Origin: Planctomycetota bacterium
Lineage (GTDB): Bacteria > Planctomycetota > Phycisphaerae > UBA1845 > PWPN01
Direction of reading: 5' to 3'
Assembly: GCA_020346805.1 (NCBI GenBank)
Contig: CP070790.1
Coordinates: 4,219,722-4,231,881, forward strand
Length of the DNA: 12,160 nt
Shown: positions 302 to 12,160 of the stretch, piece by piece
Layout: the number at the start of each line of letters is the position of its first letter
How positions within the stretch are numbered: position 1 is the stretch's first letter
Made by a program: the position numbers and the translations under genes
The notes under the pieces: model-generated
Databases searched by the model: none
The model's input: only the letters and a program-made list of their open reading frames with translations
Told to the model about the DNA's origin: nothing

Positions 302-928
302 GTGTCCGATAAAGCTTCGCCGACGCGTCCAACCCATTGTATTGACTGCGCCAAGCCGATGGAATCACCCATATGCTGCACGCATTGCGGGTCATTAAAT
401 CCGGTGCCACTGGTCTCCATCAATTACTTTGAGTTTTTTGACATCAAGCCGGGGTACGATATAAACCAAGACGAGCTACACAAAAAATATCTATGCCTGA
501 GTCGAACCACGCACCCGGACATGGCGGGCCGGGATTCGGATGAGATGCGAAATCGGGCATTGATGTTGAATGCCGAGTTGAACCGGGCATATGAGACATT
601 AAAGGATCCGATTGAACGAGCAGAATACTTGCTGGCGCTTGCCGGAGGACCTACGCCGTCGGACGATAAATCGGTACCCGGCGATCTGCTGGGCGAAATA
701 ATGATGATTCGTGAAGAAATTGAAGAGGCCAAGTCGACAAATAAGACTCCGATGCTGGAAACATTAAAAAATCAGATCTGCCAAAAAGAACGAACCGTCC
801 GGGAACAAATTGCTGTTCTGGCACGCTCGCTGGACAAAAACGATCCGACTAATAAAAAAGCTATGCGCAAACAGCTCAATGCAATCAAATACTGGAACAA
901 TCTGTTGGAACAACTACCGACAGGGTAA
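302..928 (+). CDS. hscB: HscB, J-domain co-chaperone of Fe-S cluster assembly, with N-terminal zinc-ribbon-like motif
   Basis: This 208-residue J-protein stimulates the ATPase of HscA and delivers the scaffold IscU to it. Residues 13-29 hold two CxxC pairs (C13/C16 and C26/C29) that look like a zinc ribbon; E. coli HscB (about 171 residues) lacks it, while eukaryotic HSC20/HSCB has a comparable tetracysteine domain. The J-domain spans about 41-113 (NYFEFFDIKPGYDI onward) with the catalytic HPD at 71-73, and residues about 125-205 form the helical region expected to bind IscU. The start is GTG, chosen from the GGAGA at 288-292. It sits between iscA (65 bp upstream) and hscA (24 bp downstream), so one transcript is likely. 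The HscB assignment rests on both sequence and context; zinc binding is inferred from the cysteine spacing. Confidence 0.95.
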   Translation: MSDKASPTRPTHCIDCAKPMESPICCTHCGSLNPVPLVSINYFEFFDIKPGYDINQDELHKKYLCLSRTTHPDMAGRDSDEMRNRALMLNAELNRAYETLKDPIERAEYLLALAGGPTPSDDKSVPGDLLGEIMMIREEIEEAKSTNKTPMLETLKNQICQKERTVREQIAVLARSLDKNDPTNKKAMRKQLNAIKYWNNLLEQLPTG

Positions 929-952
929 CCGTGTTGACATAAACAAAATACG

Positions 953-2926
953 ATGAGTAATGAAGCTAACGTCATAATCGGCATAGACCTGGGCACCACC
1001 AATTCACTGGTGGCATTTTGCGATGAAAAGGGGCCAAGGATCCTGAGCAATGAGTCGATTGAGGGGCAGATACCATCTGTTCTGGCTTTTGATCCGGAAA
1101 AAGGGGTCACCATCGGACGAGAAGCAAAAGTCCATGCCGTAGAGAAACCCGAAACGACGGTTTTTTCCATCAAACGGCTGATGGTCAGGGGTTATGACGA
1201 ACTGGCGAAAAGCGGGGAACTTGAACATCTTCCTTACCATGTGGTCAAACGAGTAGCTGAGTCTTCGGATCGTGACATAGCGGCAGTTGAGATTGAAGAC
1301 CGACTTATGACCCCGCCCGAACTCAGTGCCATTATTTTACGCGAATTGAAACAGCGAGCGGAGGCGGTGCTGGGATGCCAAATTGGTAAAGCGGTTATCA
1401 CGGTACCGGCCTATTTCGACGATGCCCAGCGCCAGGCAACACGGGATGCGGGAAAGATTGCCGGTCTTGAGGTAATGCGGATCATCAATGAGCCGACGGC
1501 AGCGGCCCTGGCATACGGGCTGGGAGTAAGGGATCAAACCGAGTTATCGCAAGATGAGGAAATCGAACTACCGTTAGCCCAACAGTGCAACTCGCTGGAT
1601 GATCAGGAAAAAGAATCATCAACAAACAGCGGATCAACAGACGACGAGCCGATCATTGCCGTATACGATCTGGGAGGGGGTACTTTTGACATCTCCATAT
1701 TGAGAATCGTCAACAACGTCTTTGAAGTGCTGAGCACGCATGGCAATACCCAACTCGGGGGTGACGACCTGGACCGGGAGATCATCAAGCTTATCCAGCG
1801 GGAGATCAAAGAGCAGTTCCGCATAAATATTGAATCGCCGCAAACCAAACAGGCCCTGCGAACATTTGCCGAAAATGTAAAGATCCGCCTGAGCACCGAG
1901 CAGCAGGCATCGGTAGAAATAGATATTGGTCAGGGCCGGTTGTACAAGAGGACCATAAGTCGCAATGAATTTGAAGCGATGATTGCTCCCTGGATCGACA
2001 AAACCATGGATTCCTGCCGCCGGGCTCTTACCGATGCCAGGATCGAGGCGGAAACTATCAGTCAGGTAATCATGGTTGGCGGCAGCACACGGATTCCGTA
2101 TGTAAGACAGCGAGCTGAAGGATTATTTGGCCGGCGTCCATACACCGCGTTAAACCCAGAAGAAGTTGTAGCCTTGGGCGCTGCCGTCCAGGCGGGTGTT
2201 TTGGCGAGAACGCGGAGTGATGCGCTGCTGCTCGTCATTATTCCGCTGTCGCTGGGTATCGAAACCATGGGCGGTGCAATGGGTAAACTGATTCTGCGTA
2301 ACACACGTATTCCCTGCCAGGCAGCTGAGTTTTTCAGCACCTTTGTCGACGGGCAAACCAATGTAAAAATCAACGTACTGCAGGGGGAGCGGGAACTGGC
2401 CAAAGATTGCCGATCGCTGGGTGAATTTGAGCTGCGAGATATTCCGCCCATGCCGGCAGGGATCCCCAAAATTCGAGTTTCATTCTTAATTGACGAAAAC
2501 GGAATACTAAACGTATCGGCAATCGAGGAGCGAAGCGCTAAGCAAGCAAGCATCCAGATTATCCCCACCCACGGCCTGACGGTGGACGAGGTCAAGCGGA
2601 TGGAAATCGAATCGATCATGCACGCACGCAAAGACATGACCGAACACTGGCTGATCGATCTGAGAAACCAGATTACTTTCGATACTAATAAAGCCGAACA
2701 AATGTTGGCCAAGGTAGGAGACCGAATGAATGCCCGGCAGCGCGGGGACATCGAACACGCCCTGCACAACCTGCGGATGCTGGCTGAAAAGAGCGACAGC
2801 GCTGAGCTGCTACAACGGGCCTTAGGCGAGTTTAATGAGATGACGGTACGACTGGCGGAATTGTCCATTACACAATCGCTGCAACAAGCCGGTGATTCAG
2901 ATCTATCCTCATCAAACGGTGTTTGA
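953..2926 (+). CDS. hscA: HscA, Hsp70-family chaperone of Fe-S cluster assembly
   Basis: This 657-residue cytoplasmic Hsp70 uses ATP to act on the IscU scaffold with HscB. The ATPase domain shows GIDLGTTNS (10-18), [11 protein letters not shown] (179-189), [11 protein letters not shown] (238-248), LGGDD (268-272) and [10 protein letters not shown] (375-384). The interdomain linker precedes [11 protein letters not shown] at 431-441, followed by the substrate-binding domain and a helical lid to the end. It is about 40 residues longer than E. coli HscA (616), mostly from an acidic Ser/Glu/Asp-rich insertion at about 193-232. The linker reads [11 protein letters not shown], so V428 stands where Hsp70s almost always have Asp. 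No clear Shine-Dalgarno precedes the ATG, and with only 24 bp after hscB, translational coupling is plausible. Its place between hscB and fdx separates it from DnaK. Confidence 0.96.
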
Positions 2927-2944
2927 CCTTCGAGGATCAACGGC

Positions 2945-2950
2945 GGAAGA
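2945..2950 (+). promoter_or_regulatory. Ribosome binding site of fdx
   Basis: GGAAGA stands 6 bases before the ATG at 2957. This favours that start over a second in-frame ATG at 2978. Confidence 0.55.
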
Positions 2951-2956
2951 TTCGAC

Positions 2957-3346
2957 ATGTTAAATAGTCACATCCAAATGCCTACACAAAACTATAAGAT
3001 TACCTTTCAACCGATGAATCGCACGGTTGAAGTCGATCCGGCGGATCTGCCCTACGGCAACCACGGTTTAGCGGGCAGCATCCTGGACATTGCCCTCAAG
3101 CATGGAATCCAAATCGAACATGCTTGCGGCGGGGTATGCGCCTGCTCAACCTGTCACGTAATCATCAAACAGGGCTTTAACGCATGTCACCGACCCACCG
3201 AAGATGAAGAGGATAAATTGGATGATGCCTACGGTCTCAAACCTCAATCCAGATTGGCCTGCCAATGCGTACCCGACGGCACAAAAGATATAGTGGTTGA
3301 AATACCCGAATGGAATCGCAATCTCGCCAAAGAAGGCGAAGATTGA
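2957..3346 (+). CDS. fdx: Isc-type [2Fe-2S] ferredoxin
   Basis: This 129-residue adrenodoxin-type ferredoxin is expected to carry one [2Fe-2S] cluster and supply electrons for cluster assembly on IscU. Cluster ligands are C57, C63 and C66 in [14 protein letters not shown], then C102 in RLACQC; the 35-residue gap from C66 to C102 equals that of E. coli Fdx, and C61 matches the extra non-ligand cysteine seen there. C104, next to the last ligand, and C77 are additional. The tail [17 protein letters not shown] resembles the E. coli VVEIPRYTINHAREH end. The protein is somewhat longer than E. coli Fdx (111), mainly at the N-terminus; a start at M8 (2978) would shorten it, but the better ribosome site favours 2957. 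It ends in tandem TGA-TAA stops, 16 bases before iscX. Confidence 0.96.
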
Positions 3347-5310: not shown

Positions 5311-6324
5311 TCACCCTTTACTGACATCGATCCCCAATTGTTTGAGGTACATGGCCAGGATGTGGGCCTGCTCCCCGTCTAGACCGCCTTCCGCCGCCAG
5401 ACGTTTAAATTCGGCCTTTTTCAGCGGCTTTCGGGGACGATCGGCAGTTACCTTGTCCAGGATATCGCCAACTTCCTTGAGATAAGCGAATTCCGGCACA
5501 TCGAGCATTTTCAAGGTTGAGCCTTTACCGGCCAAACCCCAAATGTAAAGAATGTCGCTATTGGGACCAGCTATAACCGGATGGGCGGCGCCGGGGATGG
5601 CAAAGGCATCGCGATTGTGGATGACATAAGCATTATCTAAACCCTGATCGTCGAACAGCATCTGTACACCAAATGGCCCCCATGCCCCGACGGTGATCCT
5701 GGCCAGATGATAGTAAACCTCTTCATGGTCGGTCTGACCGTTTTCAGGATCATCTTTATCGTGAACATGGAGGGGGGTTCCCGACCATAAACCGGGCGGG
5801 CTATATGTTTCGCCCCCCACCAGGACGGTTGTCATATCCTCCGGCGTAAACATGGTTATGACTTCACGATACCATATACCGGTCCCGCGCGGCAGATTCT
5901 CCCGTTGGCCGGGCTCGACCATGGCCGGCGGCTTGTGCCCGTCTGCCGGTGCGGAGAAATATACCAGTTCGCCCTTCCCGGCGATCTCGATAGTGGCGTC
6001 GGCGGGTGCGTAGACGGCATAGGCATTACTTTGACCGGGTAATGTCGCAAAGGGGCCGCCATCCCGTCGCCCCTTAAACACCTCAGGGCCAATCTTTATT
6101 TCAAATTCGCCGACCGCGGGAACCAAAGCGAATTCACGATCACGAGTTTCCATTCGGTGAGGGCCGTTATCCAGCCGGCAGGCGCCGAAGGCCAGGATAG
6201 TCAGTGGAGTACTATCAACTTGGGGATCGAAGATTAATCCCGTACTTTGGCCATCCCACCGTACCAGTGGCGAAATCTCACCCGTACGAATACGTTTTCG
6301 ATACAGTTCCAGTGTTTTTTGCAT
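5311..6324 (-). CDS. IolB/KduI-family isomerase (5-deoxy-glucuronate isomerase-like) with C-terminal extension
   Basis: This 337-residue bicupin of the IolB/KduI family would interconvert an aldose or uronate with its ketose; IolB itself acts on 5-deoxy-glucuronate in myo-inositol catabolism. The metal site is seen as HVHD (H186, H188), an Asp-His-Glu-Glu segment with E201/E202, and H248 in GAAHPVIAGPNSDILYIWGLAG, which matches IolB well. The N-terminal half is the degenerate first cupin. After about residue 278 comes a roughly 55-residue charged, helical tail not found in the ~270-residue Bacillus IolB. ATG 6324 is chosen over TTG 6330 because GGGAG lies 7 bases upstream. The partner sulfatase starts 4 bp after its stop. 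With no other iol gene in view, the substrate may not be inositol-derived, so no gene symbol is given. Confidence 0.85.
   Translation of the reverse strand: MQKTLELYRKRIRTGEISPLVRWDGQSTGLIFDPQVDSTPLTILAFGACRLDNGPHRMETRDREFALVPAVGEFEIKIGPEVFKGRRDGGPFATLPGQSNAYAVYAPADATIEIAGKGELVYFSAPADGHKPPAMVEPGQRENLPRGTGIWYREVITMFTPEDMTTVLVGGETYSPPGLWSGTPLHVHDKDDPENGQTDHEEVYYHLARITVGAWGPFGVQMLFDDQGLDNAYVIHNRDAFAIPGAAHPVIAGPNSDILYIWGLAGKGSTLKMLDVPEFAYLKEVGDILDKVTADRPRKPLKKAEFKRLAAEGGLDGEQAHILAMYLKQLGIDVSKG
5314..5318 (-). promoter_or_regulatory. Ribosome binding site of the sulfatase gene
   Basis: On the minus strand AAGGG ends 7 bases before the ATG at 5306. It sits within the last codons of the upstream iolB-like gene, just before its TGA (5313-5311), an arrangement typical of translational coupling. 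It decides the sulfatase start in favour of 5306. Confidence 0.65.
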
Positions 6325-6331
6325 AAACAAA

Positions 6332-6548: not shown

Positions 6549-7094
6549 TTAATAACCGCGGCGCATTACCCGGAAATCCTTTTTACGAGAGTTGACAACA
6601 ATTCCGTCTCTCCGCTCGAAAGAAATAATAAGTCGTATTTCCCGTCCGGTGAGTTCAAGATCGTCCCAGAGAATGTGCAGACGATACCCCCACCCACCGG
6701 TGGTGGGTTTTTTGGATCGGAAAGGCAGGGCTTCTTCGACATCAAAGGCCCATTCTTTGATCAATGTGGCAGAACGGGCGCCATCCGGCTTTTTATGAAT
6801 GGTATATAGTTTGGGATGAATCACACCATTACCGAAAACACCTGTCCCTTCGGGTCCTTTTAGATACAGGGCTTTGATGATAATACCGCGTGGCGTAACC
6901 TGATCCTCTGACCAAATGAAAGGATCATATCCGTCATAAAAGGCAACCACGCCGGTGACATTATCTTCGAGCATTTGAGCCACTTCCAGAGGGGTGGGAA
7001 CCTTTTCGCGCGATGCGTTCTTTCCAGGCGTAATCTGGCAGCCAACTGCAAATACATTAGCAATGATAAATGTCAATATAGATAGATGTTTCAT
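6549..7094 (-). CDS. Predicted lipoprotein of unknown function
   Basis: This 181-residue protein is not assigned to a named family. Its first 19 residues (MKHLSILTFIIANVFAVGC) are a short lipoprotein signal with an A-V-G-C lipobox, so C19 should carry lipid and anchor the protein in a membrane facing the periplasm. The mature part has aromatic and acidic patches (FYDGYDPFIW, GWGYRLHILWDDLEL) and ends in a beta-rich, basic stretch (LIISFERRDGIVV then RKKDFRV), suggesting a compact beta-sandwich-like domain. The frame is open to an ATG at 7136, with in-frame ATGs at 7124 and 7121; the 7124/7121 pair has a weak GGGA upstream and would give a longer signal, so the start is uncertain. It lies 146 bp after the secretin gene on the same strand; a shared role is possible but unproven. 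Confidence 0.75.
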   Translation of the reverse strand: MKHLSILTFIIANVFAVGCQITPGKNASREKVPTPLEVAQMLEDNVTGVVAFYDGYDPFIWSEDQVTPRGIIIKALYLKGPEGTGVFGNGVIHPKLYTIHKKPDGARSATLIKEWAFDVEEALPFRSKKPTTGGWGYRLHILWDDLELTGREIRLIISFERRDGIVVNSRKKDFRVMRRGY

Positions 7095-7161
7095 AATTTC
7101 ACGTATGGATAACGTGTGCATCATCAAAAATCCCACTTATCTTTAAGTGTTAAATGATACC

Positions 7162-7240: not shown

Positions 7241-10200
7241 TTATCTTTCAGCCCGAATTACGATGGCACTTCGGGAAGGACCATATTCGATCGAGGAACT
7301 TGCCGGTCCGAATTCCTCCAGGGCAGGCCCCATTTGGTCAAGCTGCTGTTGATCCCGCTTTTTCCGATCGATGGGCCGCAGAGGTTCAACCGGACCCAAC
7401 TGATCCTCCTCCGGTTTTACTTGCAGCCTTTGCATAAGCGGATTCTTACGCATGTTGTCCAGCATGCCGGTTTGATCTCGCATTTCAATCGAAATAGTAC
7501 GCGCCTGATCCATATCACGAATAACATGCGGGGTAAGGACAATCAGCAATTCAGTTTTCGTATTTGATACGGTGTTAGTCCGGAAAAGATGTCCCAAACC
7601 AGGAATATCACCGAGCAGGGGCACCTTGGTTTCGCTGGTGTTCTCCCGACTGGTGATCAAACCACCGATTATGATCGTTTCACCATCTTTGACCGTCACC
7701 GCAGTTTCAGCCTTTCTTTCGTTTAAGATCGGCAAGTTGACCCCGGCCGCCACCGGAATACTTGACGTACCTATCGATGATATTTCAGGGAAGATTTCCA
7801 TGTTTACGTAACCGTCGGGGCTGATAATTGGAGTTACCGTAAGAATTATTCCAACATCCTGATAATCAACGCTGGGGGTTACACTTCCCGTAGAAGCTAC
7901 ATTGAAGTCCTTTACTATTGGAATACTTTCACCTACCGTAATACTTGCCTCTTTCTGATCCTGAACCAGGATGGATGGACGGGATAGGATTTCCAGTCTG
8001 CCTTCGGTCTGTAATGCCCTGAGCAGGAAATTGAAATCCTCCCCGGTGACGGTAAAGCTGAATCCGCCCAGGGTTCCACCCGCTGCTCCAATATCGGTAC
8101 CCATGATAAAATCAAAATTATCACCTTGCAGTGTGTTATTGGGCCCCAAGACTGCCTTTTCGCTGAACAGCAAATCCTGGACCGCAAACTCCATACCCAT
8201 CTCAAAACGATCCTCCAAGGTAACCTCCGCCATCAAGACCTGGATCATAACCGAGGGAGGTAACTGATCCAGTTCGTTGATCATGGTAATAACCTGCGAT
8301 TCCATTCTGGGGCTATAGCTAACCAGCAGGGTGTTGGCAACCTCGCCCGCATCGGTAATGGTCACTCGGCGTTCCATTTGCCGAGTAACCGCCTCACCTT
8401 CAACCTCTTCAACAATGCTGCTTTCCTCATCAAAGTACGCGCTCATTCTTTCGGCTACATCCTCTGCATCGACATGACGCAAAGGCACCACCTTAACAAT
8501 ACGTTCTTCGATCTCCTGATAGTCCAAATCTTGAACCAGCTTTTCCACCGTCTTGAGGTATATTTCACTACCGGCGGCAATCAACGAGTTGGTTCGCCTA
8601 TCTACGGAAAATGCCAGATCGAGACTGGCGGCACCTTCGGCACGCATCGGCGCCTGTCCTTCTCCGCCGATCACCAACTGACGGCGTTCCTGACCACTGT
8701 CACCTTCCTGGGTCTGGAATAACTCATCCAGCAGTTCCTTCATTTCAGTGGCGTCCGCGTTATAGAGGGTAAACATTCTTACCTTGGCAGTGAGCGGTTC
8801 AACACTATCCAACATCTCCACCAGCATTTGCATCATGTCAATGTGATCCTTAGGAGTCATAACCAGCAGCGAGTTGGTGTTCGTATCAGGCTTGATGGTA
8901 ACATCCTGATATACCAGGCTGGGAATAATATCCCCGACGACTTTCGGATCGGCACTGGTCTTGAAATTAATGATCAGTTGCCGGCTTTTTTCCTGGTCCC
9001 CGGCGCCCGCCGCTTCAAAAAATTCCTCCAGCAATTCAGAAAGATCCTCGGCATCGGCGTTGTACAGTTTGAACACCCTCATTGCCATTTCCGTCTTGGA
9101 TTTAACGTTATCCAACTGAGCGACAATAGTCTTGATGTTGGACAACATATCCGGGGAAGCCCAAACCAACAGTGAATTGGTTCGTTCCTCAGGGGTAATG
9201 GCAAATCCGCCCTTGGCATCCTTCATTCCTTCCTGCTGCTGCTGGAGCAAGTCCTCCAGAGTTTCGGCGAGTTCCTCAGCCCGGGCCTGCTCCAAGGAAA
9301 TGATTTCCACCTGCTCGGCCAGGGTGGACTTGCGATCCAACTTTGTGATCAGGTCAGCCACCATCAGATGATCTTCGGTGGAAGCGGTAACCACCAGGCT
9401 GTTGGATCCATCGTCCGGCAGAACAATAATGGGGGTTTGCTTGTCCTTCAGATCAGAGGGGATACGTTTTTCGAACAACTCGGTCATTACCGGTTCGAGC
9501 TGTGAAGCCGCCGCATCTTTCAACTTATAGACTCTGACCTCAGATGTAGGCATCACCGAAGGTTGATCCAACTTGGGAACCAGCTCTGCCGCCCGTTTCA
9601 TGGCCAGGCGTGTACCGGCCACTATCAGCACATTGCTGCGCATATCGGGTATCAGGGTAACCTCCAACTGTTCTTTCTCATCCTTCAAGGTATCCTGCAT
9701 ACCCTCGAATAGTTGTTCAAGAATGTCGGCAACCTTGACCACGTCGGCGTGCTGCAGCTTGAAGAAGCTGGCTTCGGCCTTGAACATAGGAGTATCTTCT
9801 TGGTCGATTTCCTTGAGCAGGGCCTCGATGATGGCAAAGTTTTCGGGGCTGGCGCTCACTATAAGCGAACTACTGCGTAGGTGAGGTACGATAGTAACCT
9901 TGGTTATCGACTCCGGTATATCCTTGTCGCCGGCACTTCCCCGATACACGCCCTCTTCGAACATCTTATCCAATAATTCAGCGGTATTGGTCACATCGGC
10001 ATATTGTATAAAGAAGGTGCGAATTAAACCCTCGACGGCCAAGGGTACATCCAGCTTCTCGACCAAGCGCATAACTTCGTCATATTTGGGTTTGGTCGAA
10101 GCTATCAGCAAGGTATTGGTGAGAGGTTCGGGAACCACGGCCACTCGCTCGGAAGGTCTTTCTTCCTCGCCTTTGGCCTGACTGATCTTGATCCTTTCCT

Positions 10201-12079
10201 CGAATAGCTTTTCAACGATCTCGGCCAGCTTGGTGGCATCATTATGCTTAAGGGGGACCAGACGAATGTCGGCCATGGGGGTCAGTTCCAGCTTTTCCAA
10301 CTGCTCGACAAGCTGTTTCATGGCTGTAACATCCTCGGTACTGGCTGCTACTACCAACGAGTTGCTCCGCGTATCAGCGACCAAAACCGGTTTATCCTCA
10401 GGAAGTTCCTCCTCCTTGCGAATCGCAGCCCGGCGTTCCCAAAGTTTCTCGATCTTCTCAACTATCTCAGAGGCGGCCAGGTTTGTCAGAGATATAATTT
10501 GAATATCACCGAAAGGGACCTTACCCATCTCGTCCAATTTTCGGGCCAGATTAACAATCTCGTCATAGTTGTCGTCCTTGGCCACTACAATCATGCTGTT
10601 GGTCCGGACATCGGGAATAACCAGTATCTGCTCACGTTCCTCGGCCAGCGGGCCGATCCGCTTGGCCGCTTTTTGCCGCATTTCCGCCAGTTCTTCTGCT
10701 ATCTCCGCTACCCGCCGAACATCCGCATGTTCCAGTTGGATCATTCGCAGAGGAAACCGATTTGCATGTTCGGGTACATCTATAGCGCTGATAACCTTTT
10801 CTATCAGCAGCAACTGATCGGGCTGGCCGGCGGCAACCAGCATGTTGGTTCGCGGATCCGACGACAAGCTGATGTTATGTACCAGAGACTTGCCCGGAAG
10901 TTCGGAAGGCACCCGGTCGGGGATTTTACTTTCCCGGCCGGGAAGTTTGACCAAATCCTTGGCGCTCTTGAACATATCCTCCAACATTTTTTGCAGCGAC
11001 TCGGCATCAGCGTACTTGAGTGGGAAAAGCTTGACCAACATATCCTCGGCAATAGGTACGGTATCCAATAGCCTGACGATCTCCCCCACCGATTTCAGGT
11101 TGGACTCCACACTGGCCACGATGACCGCATTAGCCGACACGTCGGAGAACACCTTAATCGGTTTATCCAGATCGAGATCGGCCAATATTTCATCCCCCAG
11201 GGTACCATCCGCCTTCCTGACCATTACCTGCAGGCGCCGGATCTGTTCCTGCATGGCCTTGGCGTCGTCGCCGGCCGACTGCAGCATGGTCTCCAGAGTG
11301 TCGGCCAGATCCTTGGCCACCGCTTTCTGCAGCGGGAAGACGGCCATCTTGACCATACTCCAACTCTCTTCGGTAGTCTCCACATCGATCAAGTCGATGA
11401 GATGCTTGATCTGTTTCAGATCTTCCTCGGGAGCCGAGATCAATAGCGAATTGGTCCTGACGTCAGCCTTGATGTCGAACAATTTGGTCTTGGACTGCCG
11501 GCGCTTCTGGAGATCTTCCAGCATTTTATTCAACATCTCTTCGGCTTCCAGAACCTTAATATGTTTGAGGGGAATTTGTTCATATAATCTTACTTCATCT
11601 TTTAAGGTAGGTTGATCGAGCTGATCGATGATATCCTTAATTTTATCCATACTATCCACGGTAGCGGCAACCATCAGGGTGTTGGTTCGCGCTTCGGGAA
11701 TGATAGTGATCCTATCCTCGGGCCGAGGTTTCCCGGTAATCGGCTTGGTAACCTCGTTCCAGAACTTTTCCACCTTTGGGGCAAGTTCGGCGGCCTGAGC
11801 ATGCTTCAGATTGATAATATGAAAAGTCGGCTCAATCCACGGCTGGTAATCCAGGACCTTGATAAATTCCGCCAGTATCTCCACGTCTTTTTCATCGCCG
11901 GTAAGAACCAGCTTTCCATCCGGTGTGGTGCTAATCTGAACCGGAAGGCCGGACAACTCGGAAACCGAATCGAAAGTAGTCGCCGGCTGGCTGGTCGCCT
12001 GCGAAGCCGGTTGTGTGGCGGGAGGGGCCTGCGCCGTCTGCCCCAATATCGCCGCCATCATAAGCATGTAGTATAACAT
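7241..12079 (-). CDS. Giant secretin (type II/III/IV pilus secretin superfamily) with about 14 N-domain repeats
   Basis: This 1612-residue protein should form a ring-shaped outer-membrane channel. In order: a short signal peptide (MLYYMLMMAAILGQTAQA), a Pro/Gln/Thr/Ala-rich linker to about 36, a half repeat (about 46-80), fourteen secretin-N-like repeats (about 86-1275), the secretin barrel domain (about 1276-1520), and a charged Gln/Pro-rich tail to 1612. The barrel domain shows DFNFLLRALQTEGRLEILSRP, then IGGLI and VPLLGDIPGLGHLF, hallmarks of GspD/PilQ/PulD. Ordinary secretins are 600-750 residues with three or four N-domains. ATG 12079 is chosen over 12097 because GGAGG lies 9 bases upstream of it. 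No partner such as an ATPase, platform protein or pilin is in the window, so type II secretion, type IV pilus or another system cannot be told apart. Confidence 0.93.
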   Translation of the reverse strand: MLYYMLMMAAILGQTAQAPPATQPASQATSQPATTFDSVSELSGLPVQISTTPDGKLVLTGDEKDVEILAEFIKVLDYQPWIEPTFHIINLKHAQAAELAPKVEKFWNEVTKPITGKPRPEDRITIIPEARTNTLMVAATVDSMDKIKDIIDQLDQPTLKDEVRLYEQIPLKHIKVLEAEEMLNKMLEDLQKRRQSKTKLFDIKADVRTNSLLISAPEEDLKQIKHLIDLIDVETTEESWSMVKMAVFPLQKAVAKDLADTLETMLQSAGDDAKAMQEQIRRLQVMVRKADGTLGDEILADLDLDKPIKVFSDVSANAVIVASVESNLKSVGEIVRLLDTVPIAEDMLVKLFPLKYADAESLQKMLEDMFKSAKDLVKLPGRESKIPDRVPSELPGKSLVHNISLSSDPRTNMLVAAGQPDQLLLIEKVISAIDVPEHANRFPLRMIQLEHADVRRVAEIAEELAEMRQKAAKRIGPLAEEREQILVIPDVRTNSMIVVAKDDNYDEIVNLARKLDEMGKVPFGDIQIISLTNLAASEIVEKIEKLWERRAAIRKEEELPEDKPVLVADTRSNSLVVAASTEDVTAMKQLVEQLEKLELTPMADIRLVPLKHNDATKLAEIVEKLFEERIKISQAKGEEERPSERVAVVPEPLTNTLLIASTKPKYDEVMRLVEKLDVPLAVEGLIRTFFIQYADVTNTAELLDKMFEEGVYRGSAGDKDIPESITKVTIVPHLRSSSLIVSASPENFAIIEALLKEIDQEDTPMFKAEASFFKLQHADVVKVADILEQLFEGMQDTLKDEKEQLEVTLIPDMRSNVLIVAGTRLAMKRAAELVPKLDQPSVMPTSEVRVYKLKDAAASQLEPVMTELFEKRIPSDLKDKQTPIIVLPDDGSNSLVVTASTEDHLMVADLITKLDRKSTLAEQVEIISLEQARAEELAETLEDLLQQQQEGMKDAKGGFAITPEERTNSLLVWASPDMLSNIKTIVAQLDNVKSKTEMAMRVFKLYNADAEDLSELLEEFFEAAGAGDQEKSRQLIINFKTSADPKVVGDIIPSLVYQDVTIKPDTNTNSLLVMTPKDHIDMMQMLVEMLDSVEPLTAKVRMFTLYNADATEMKELLDELFQTQEGDSGQERRQLVIGGEGQAPMRAEGAASLDLAFSVDRRTNSLIAAGSEIYLKTVEKLVQDLDYQEIEERIVKVVPLRHVDAEDVAERMSAYFDEESSIVEEVEGEAVTRQMERRVTITDAGEVANTLLVSYSPRMESQVITMINELDQLPPSVMIQVLMAEVTLEDRFEMGMEFAVQDLLFSEKAVLGPNNTLQGDNFDFIMGTDIGAAGGTLGGFSFTVTGEDFNFLLRALQTEGRLEILSRPSILVQDQKEASITVGESIPIVKDFNVASTGSVTPSVDYQDVGIILTVTPIISPDGYVNMEIFPEISSIGTSSIPVAAGVNLPILNERKAETAVTVKDGETIIIGGLITSRENTSETKVPLLGDIPGLGHLFRTNTVSNTKTELLIVLTPHVIRDMDQARTISIEMRDQTGMLDNMRKNPLMQRLQVKPEEDQLGPVEPLRPIDRKKRDQQQLDQMGPALEEFGPASSSIEYGPSRSAIVIRAER
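8255..11824 (-). repeat. Tandem array of about 14 secretin-N modules within the secretin gene
   Basis: Each module of about 76-106 residues follows one plan: a strand ending in PLKHADA-like sequence, a helix (LAEIVEKLFEE type), a variable loop, a strand leading into the recurrent RTNSLLVAA motif, then a helix ending in a LD pair. The RTNSL-type motif is seen as RTNTLMV, RTNSLLI, SANAVIV, RTNMLVA, RTNSMIV, RSNSLVV, LTNTLLI, RSSSLIV, RSNVLIV, GSNSLVV, RTNSLLV, NTNSLLV, RTNSLIA and VANTLLV, in order from the N-terminus. Modules 3, 4, 12 and 13 are longer because of loop insertions. The copies have diverged well at DNA level, so the expansion is old rather than recent slippage. Confidence 0.85.
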
Positions 12080-12088
12080 TGAACATAT

Positions 12089-12093
12089 CCTCC
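12089..12093 (-). promoter_or_regulatory. Ribosome binding site of the secretin gene
   Basis: GGAGG on the minus strand stands 9 bases before the ATG at 12079 and overlaps the region just after the alternative ATG at 12097. This is the strongest Shine-Dalgarno in the window and fixes the start. The remaining bases to 12160 have stops in all three minus-strand frames within the first few codons, so they are leader or the extreme end of a gene outside the window. Confidence 0.8.
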
Positions 12094-12160
12094 ACATTTA
12101 TAAATACTTATCGGCAATCGCCTATCCAGACGAGTACCTAATCACTTACCTTTACCGCTC

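Follow-up and report, generated by a model that had tools for sequence, protein, structure and literature searches.

A very long, probably two-part secretin of the GspD type in Planctomycetota

Secretins with a drawn-out periplasmic part and secretins with a divided gene have both been described. The available part of PMC5745081 reports six stacked rings, N0-N5, for PilQ of Thermus thermophilus, 350 Å long with six rings and cap; the N-domain stack is said there to cross most of a wide periplasm, and the rings are described in pairs, N0N1 and N2N3. In RhcC1/RhcC2 and HrcIIC1/HrcIIC2 of rhizobial-type type III secretion systems (T3SS), according to the available portions of PMC3574062 and PMC3973906, the secretin gene is split into an N-terminal and a C-terminal gene, which sometimes lie apart and in some strains number three; PMC3574062 gives the significance of the split as not known. 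The present analysis concerns a secretin gene in 12,160 nucleotides of a Planctomycetota bacterium (assembly GCA_020346805.1, contig CP070790.1, positions 4,219,722 to 4,231,881), a stretch referred to as the window. The gene (7241..12079, minus strand) is interpreted as coding for the outer part of a giant GspD-type secretin that is divided in two. With its relatives it represents a secretin type that is real, conserved, very long and probably built in two parts. Among the matches listed in a search of literature without most subscription journals, none dealt with giant or split secretins of planctomycetes, and 'planctom' is absent from the main text of PMC6668835.

The longest form of the open reading frame (ORF) is 7241-12097 on the minus strand, with 1618 residues. 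The start at 12079, used in a preliminary description of the sequence and giving 1612 residues, is preferred because GGAGG stands nine bases upstream of it. The protein consists of a signal peptide, half an N-domain, 14 Secretin_N domains, a barrel and a charged C-terminal tail. The signal peptide (12041..12079, minus strand), MLYYMLMMAAILG followed by Q, is predicted from sequence only and is the counterpart of an internal hydrophobic segment in fused relatives. The half-domain at residues 48-83 (11849..11956, minus strand) is absent from Pfam's list and was read from the sequence and its alignment with relatives; it is predicted to be the second half (β2-β3-α2) of an N-domain shared with an inner protein, the joint of a relative having been modelled. 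The array itself (8264..11821, minus strand) comprises 14 stretches of Secretin_N (PF03958, E 2.3e-147) by Pfam and also 14 domains, over residues 93-1278, by an N-domain profile from the same genome. The agreement of the two profiles rules out a miscount, and the count is far beyond chance. The barrel (PF00263; 7517..8017, minus strand) covers residues 1361-1527 with 172.6 bits and E 7.2e-51. The preliminary description had claimed about fourteen N-domain modules before a canonical C-terminal barrel, which these matches bear out, as well as a tube several-fold longer than that of GspD or PilQ, which is supported provided that the rings stack. From the sequence the 14 domains are judged to be old, because their median pairwise identity is 29% and that of the best pair 40%; no DNA-level repeat was found in the gene by Tandem Repeats Finder. 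Neither N0 nor STN was matched by Pfam in this chain, which opens with the half N-domain.

The genome of the window (G000) is one contig of 4.28 Mb with two barrels, that of the window secretin and that of a 673-residue secretin elsewhere, whose neighbours appear by eye to be prepilin-like and PilM/PilN-like. A search with the N-domain instead of the barrel found a barrel-less N-domain protein of 1589 residues (L023) at C1:443,981-448,750. On a circular contig its distance from the window would be about 0.5 Mb, on a linear one 3.8 Mb. It contains 12 N-domains by Pfam or 13 by the own-genome profile, has no barrel match, and the end of its gene is partly masked. This inner chain starts N0-like and is predicted to begin with N0, AlphaFold and a fold search giving an N0-N1-N2 fold at its inner end. 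Since the inner half is encoded elsewhere in the genome, 14 is probably not the full N-domain count of the assembly. The fourteen-module secretin first proposed stands for the window chain, but that chain is apparently incomplete, with no N0 found, a start in mid-domain and a separate inner half. A third N-domain protein of G000 (L024:7912-9144, plus strand; 410 residues) has three Secretin_N domains and no barrel, and its neighbour is an ORF with a weak zf-HC2 (anti-sigma-like) match.

In alignments, both chains apparently break within one and the same N-domain, a reading that a profile test backs in part. Inner proteins close with a β-α segment, an Arg/Gly/Ser-rich tail and the stop, and barrel proteins carry after the signal peptide LSGxxV...DGxLVLxGxEEDxxxLExxIxxLD, a stretch that can be read as the latter part of an N-domain. 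Fused genes hold both halves in order, separated by an Arg-rich tail, a hydrophobic segment and a Pro/Thr-rich linker. In an AlphaFold monomer model of the fused joint of genome G038, the predicted local distance difference test (pLDDT) score is ∼92-94 for both halves and ∼40 for the linker. VIA-align matched this model, across the linker in each case, to GspD 3ezj_G over 121 residues at 3.5 Å (model 157-391) and to GspD 5zdh_A over 192 residues at 5.9 Å (model 156-471). The first half and the next domain supply at most 105 residues of the 3ezj_G match, and the alignment must therefore have treated part of the second half and the first half as a single N1. By this indirect route the two halves in this fused relative are predicted to superpose on a single GspD N1 domain.

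The preliminary description had left the partner system as unknown and had pointed to a search for gsp genes beside homologues. On sequence evidence the partner is a type II secretion system (T2SS), because the type_II_gspD score lies above its cut-off and a gsp operon leads into the secretin in relatives. The NCBIfam model type_II_gspD (TIGR02517) gives 632 bits against an equivalog cut-off of 351.35, the score being the sum of eight stretches, of which the best aligns residues 1056-1536 with profile positions 114-600; the model of split T3SS secretins, TIGR02516 (SctC/RhcC), gives 212.3, under its cut-off of 238.45. T2SSF, T2SSG, T2SSK and a PilM-like GspL lead into the secretin of relatives; F, G, K and L of the cluster are recognised by family matches, and H, I, J and M by weak matches or position. 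The operon of G003 reads T2SSF, T2SSG, three pseudopilin-like ORFs (one with an N_methyl match, one without a match, one with a weak T2SSJ match), T2SSK, PilM-like GspL, GspM-like, inner chain, barrel chain and lipoprotein. In 13 of 25 genomes GspK shares contig and strand with the barrel, at a distance of 16-24 kb. The T2SS of G000 is dispersed, as F-G, the J-K-L-M-inner chain cluster and the secretin of the window stand at separate sites. GspF and GspG are together at 3.07 Mb; directly upstream of L023 are a GspM-like ORF (37-43% identical to the same-place ORF of G003), a GspL-like ORF (98 bits to the PilM model, under that model's cut-off of 133), GspK (T2SSK_1st, 61.7 bits) and a GspJ-like ORF. 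G003 and G011 have three T2SSK and six secretin matches each (contigs G003:C3, G003:C15, G011:C6 and G011:C23), and several T2SS-like systems may coexist in these two genomes.

A secretin was present in all 61 genomes searched, G000 included. The secretin ORF has at least 1400 residues in at least 53 of them, counting the masking artefact G017, and at least 4000 residues in at least 24. The 1887-residue frame of G017 was rejected as an architecture, as an RpoB-like start (by eye) is joined there to the secretin via a masked stretch. Genes were read in twenty regions around barrels and twenty around GspK, and relatives that carry a name are labelled Phycisphaerae or other Planctomycetota. Three layouts were recorded. 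An inner N-domain-only protein directly precedes the barrel protein in G003 (28+14 N-domains), G011 (30+14), G016 (41+14), G042 (18+14) and G019 (13+13), and also in G008 and G009, which are cut by contig ends. Three genes are found in G013 (6+12+14) and likewise in G020, which is cut; in this family (f2; L069 in G013, L070 in G020) the second boundary also appears to lie within an N-domain. A single ORF is complete in seven genomes: G038 (4465 residues, 35 N-domains), G050 (5181, 40), G059 (4928, 31), G018 (4466, 30), G015 (4597, 29), G021 (4714, 33) and G043 (4507, 27); that of G014 is cut, with 27. Pfam and the own-genome profile give 32 and 35 domains for G038, and 26 and 25 for locus L144. 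Barrel proteins of family f1 have 14 N-domains in six of the seven copies read and 11 in G004 (locus L107). Fused giants as gene-calling artefacts were rejected, no gene classed as fused having an in-frame stop within 420 residues before the joint.

Outside the order, a Phycisphaeraceae-like clade has one ORF of 3300-4800 residues with 23-36 N-domains where complete, Gemmataceae records have 7 and 8 (one cut) and, in a third that is cut, 3, and a Pirellulales record has 5. A metagenome-assembled genome under the name Phycisphaera mikurensis has a secretin of 3301 residues with 25-26 N-domains. Non-planctomycete secretins have 0-3 by the own-genome profile, which misses divergent N0/N1. A protein-database search with a giant query gave, among the best 120 of 247 matches, 118 proteins with a barrel and 23-55 N-domains (median 36); in another search, among the best 120 of 418 matches, 114 barrel proteins of more than 1400 residues, the window protein included, have 10-28 (median 14). 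Two giants of ∼3,955 residues with Secretin_N and a barrel (P0232, P0234) carry the source label Verrucomicrobia. A scan of genome contigs with a single-protein query found no relative, and an alignment-based scan did find relatives.

The most probable reading of these results is that the window secretin forms the outer part of a T2SS secretin made of two chains, and that the unlinked inner chain, with 12-13 N-domains and a predicted N0, likely joins it via the split N-domain, so that a periplasmic conduit of great length results. Modelling suggests that the two half-domains complete one N1-like domain and so join inner to outer chain. The likely product would be a T2SS conduit composed of two chains, with about 27 or more rings, through which the pseudopilus would drive folded enzymes across a wide periplasm.

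Several observations weigh against this reading. The inner and outer genes are unlinked in G000, and the masked end of the inner gene leaves its last residues unreadable. GspM is without a family match, GspJ has only weak matches below cut-off, and GspC (T2SSC, PF11356) has no match in G000, the control search having matched 2 of 14 genomes. The PilQ model TIGR02515 is also above its cut-off (298.9 against 284.35), though far lower than GspD, and T2SSK, matched in 24 of 25 genomes, has no match in G006. The model of the joint is a monomer of a fused relative, built with 24 alignment rows and with a predicted template modelling score of 0.41. A half-domain profile, a weak test in which some rows are near-copies, recognises 11 of 20 inner tails and, among the outer heads, 12 of 20. 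The threshold was the 99th percentile of shuffles, which 0.2 of 20 would be expected to exceed. In the control with swapped halves, 5 of 20 tails pass, several of these five containing an undetected whole domain, and 1 of 20 heads; the window's own head is under the threshold, with a score of −3.0.

The fused relatives bear on how the two chains arise. In fused genes of family f7 the linker segment has the form RxxAxTLPVFMMQVALSTAVAQ, with the A-x-A/G-Q end in all 13 fused genomes read, and 35 of 39 f7-type database proteins are over the hydrophobicity cut. Its mean identity among 33 non-redundant proteins is 38.7% against 9-11% in the flanks, the search pattern having required −3, −1 and Q with core positions free and having picked at least one wrong site (P0124). 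Because a conserved signal-peptide-like segment lies between the halves, the f7 products may be cut into two chains, and the fused ORF would then yield the same two chains as the split genes. There is about an even chance, instead, that the fused giants are single chains, the segment being a membrane anchor or a fossil and no cleavage site. An internal signal sequence is topologically awkward in an already exported chain, which would reach the segment only once its N-terminal portion had already left. The AxA-Q end is also lost in most copies of family f4, no hydrophobic segment being picked in two, and position −9 of the f7-type segment, mid hydrophobic core, is a polar Gln or Asn in 24 of 33, which is unusual for a plain signal peptide. 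Cleavage is favoured by the basic start, hydrophobic core and signal-peptidase-like end that the f7 segment keeps, and by its resemblance to the N-terminal signal peptides of split relatives (AAILG-Q in the window, AAAMG-Q in G008). Internal re-initiation finds no support, several fused genes having no Met near the segment.

A barrel tree of 76 rows, made by a quick method with Shimodaira-Hasegawa-like approximate likelihood ratio support only, places fused f7 (99) among lineages with split genes, f1 (99) and f8/f2 (97); the forks that separate them are weak. The tree requires two or more switches between the split and the fused state. This count leaves out the 28 rows that carry the label 'no joint', which include contig-cut genes and also split genes with the joint below cut. 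The simplest reading of the sequences would be refusion after a split, with a putative cleavage site kept in f7.

In several cases array length has changed in steps of two domains. The inner chains of the congeners G003 and G011 are 95% identical apart from one insertion of 152 residues, equal to two N-domains, and their barrel chains are both 1739 residues long and 97.5% identical. Near-identical domains stand two apart in the inner chain of G000 (94% and 88%), and likewise in G004, G011 and G050. Among 42 independent proteins having a pair at least 60% identical, the most alike pair has a lag of 2 in 17, an even lag in 29 and a lag of 1 in one, missed domains being able to shift the index; on that account 'always in pairs' was rejected as too strong for domain gain. 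Part of the change in length comes from duplication of ring-pair units, seen in the inner chain of G000 and of close relatives, and reach could be tuned in this way with the barrel untouched. The preliminary description had suggested that a long tube might suit the wide or invaginated periplasm of planctomycetes, or might serve for measuring; variation of length in two-domain steps could be compatible with the latter. It is unlikely that such growth is merely neutral, duplications piling up and the boundary drifting by fission and refusion while the extra length brings no gain. The wide range of N-domain totals in relatives (26 to 55), the repeated split/fused changes and the decayed f4 joint segment are in its favour. 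The retention of long arrays in most genomes, the near-constant outer block of f1 and the conservation of the f7 segment far above its flanks argue against it.

The length of the conduit depends on whether the rings stack. At ∼3-4 nm each, as extrapolated from other secretins, 26-27 rings would span roughly 80-110 nm. The N-domains might instead not be ring-closed along the whole array, a flexible string tethering the barrel to the inner platform over a variable gap. Long loops in some N-domains by the own-genome profile, joint linkers of ∼90-300 residues in fused relatives, with low pLDDT in the modelled one, and the flexibility of six-ring Thermus PilQ itself, as given in the available part of PMC5745081, would fit such a string. 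It is nevertheless quite doubtful, as the fold compares with the ring-forming secretin N1/N2 fold, the same part of PMC5745081 describes PilQ as stacking six rings of such domains, and gaps between neighbouring N-domains of the window protein are short. It is improbable that the barrel protein is complete alone, with 14 N-rings and no N0, beside a separate periplasmic scaffold outside the tube, for although the genes are unlinked in G000, and although a signal peptide precedes the barrel protein and its number of domains is rather fixed, the two parts are fused in a single ORF in seven relatives of the order that are complete and are adjacent in others, N0 is found solely in the inner chain, and both chains apparently break in the same domain.

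The two-chain conduit can be extended, as a tentative proposal, to a tube of ∼26 to 55 rings and at least 80 nm, in which two chains would be locked by a split N-domain in each protomer, reach would be altered by ring pairs of the inner chain, and fused precursors of 4,000-5,000 residues would be cut at an internal signal peptide.

A small lipoprotein gene (6549..7136, minus strand), with a lipobox AVGC read by eye, follows the secretin directly. When only the ORFs downstream of these secretins were searched, homologues were placed just downstream in 14 of 19 other loci (E 3.3e-10 or better) and are missing in G038, G014, G015, G016 and G017; no family match was obtained in Pfam or NCBIfam. 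By its position and lipobox the lipoprotein is a candidate pilotin or assembly partner and could serve as pilotin of the conduit. Two genes downstream of the secretin is a KduI/IolB-family gene (5311-6330), with similar ORFs, by eye, in G016 and G008. HscB-like, DnaK-type and ferredoxin genes lie at 302-3346, and J-domain-like and DnaK-like ORFs, by sequence look, lie near the G003 secretin as well (G003:C15:24002-26479).

The existence of a conserved class of secretins with 14-55 N-domains in Planctomycetota, and in Verrucomicrobia too according to two database labels, bears on how a secretion machine crosses an unusually wide periplasm. Assembled together, the two chains would probably rank among the longest tubes known for protein export. 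If the rings stack, tube length should track domain number, and the two-domain duplications offer natural length variants among close relatives. A ring domain completed from two chains, if true, would be a new means of joining tube segments.

Compared with known systems, the secretin resembles GspD/PulD in its barrel, in the N-domains adjoining the barrel, in a TIGR02517 score above cut-off, in the predicted N0-N1-N2 inner end, and in the operon of relatives with T2SSF, T2SSG, T2SSK and GspL-like genes. It differs in having 26-27 or more N-domains in two chains where GspD/PulD has N0-N3 in one, in a boundary that is apparently intra-domain, and in the lack of a matched GspC in G000. Thermus PilQ, as far as described above, shares the extended N-domain stack, its ring pairs recalling the two-domain steps seen here; it has six rings in one chain and serves type IV pili and DNA uptake, whereas 14 N-domains are found in the window chain and up to 55 in relatives. 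With RhcC1/RhcC2 and HrcIIC1/HrcIIC2, as reported in the portions noted, the common feature is the split secretin gene, in a T3SS there and in a T2SS here. These split secretins are of ordinary length. Bradyrhizobium FbcH, the precursor of cytochromes b and c1, is one ORF cut at an internal signal peptide, as established experimentally. FbcH thus parallels the fused giants in one ORF, an internal signal peptide and two products, but it is an unrelated respiratory protein, and cleavage is predicted here.
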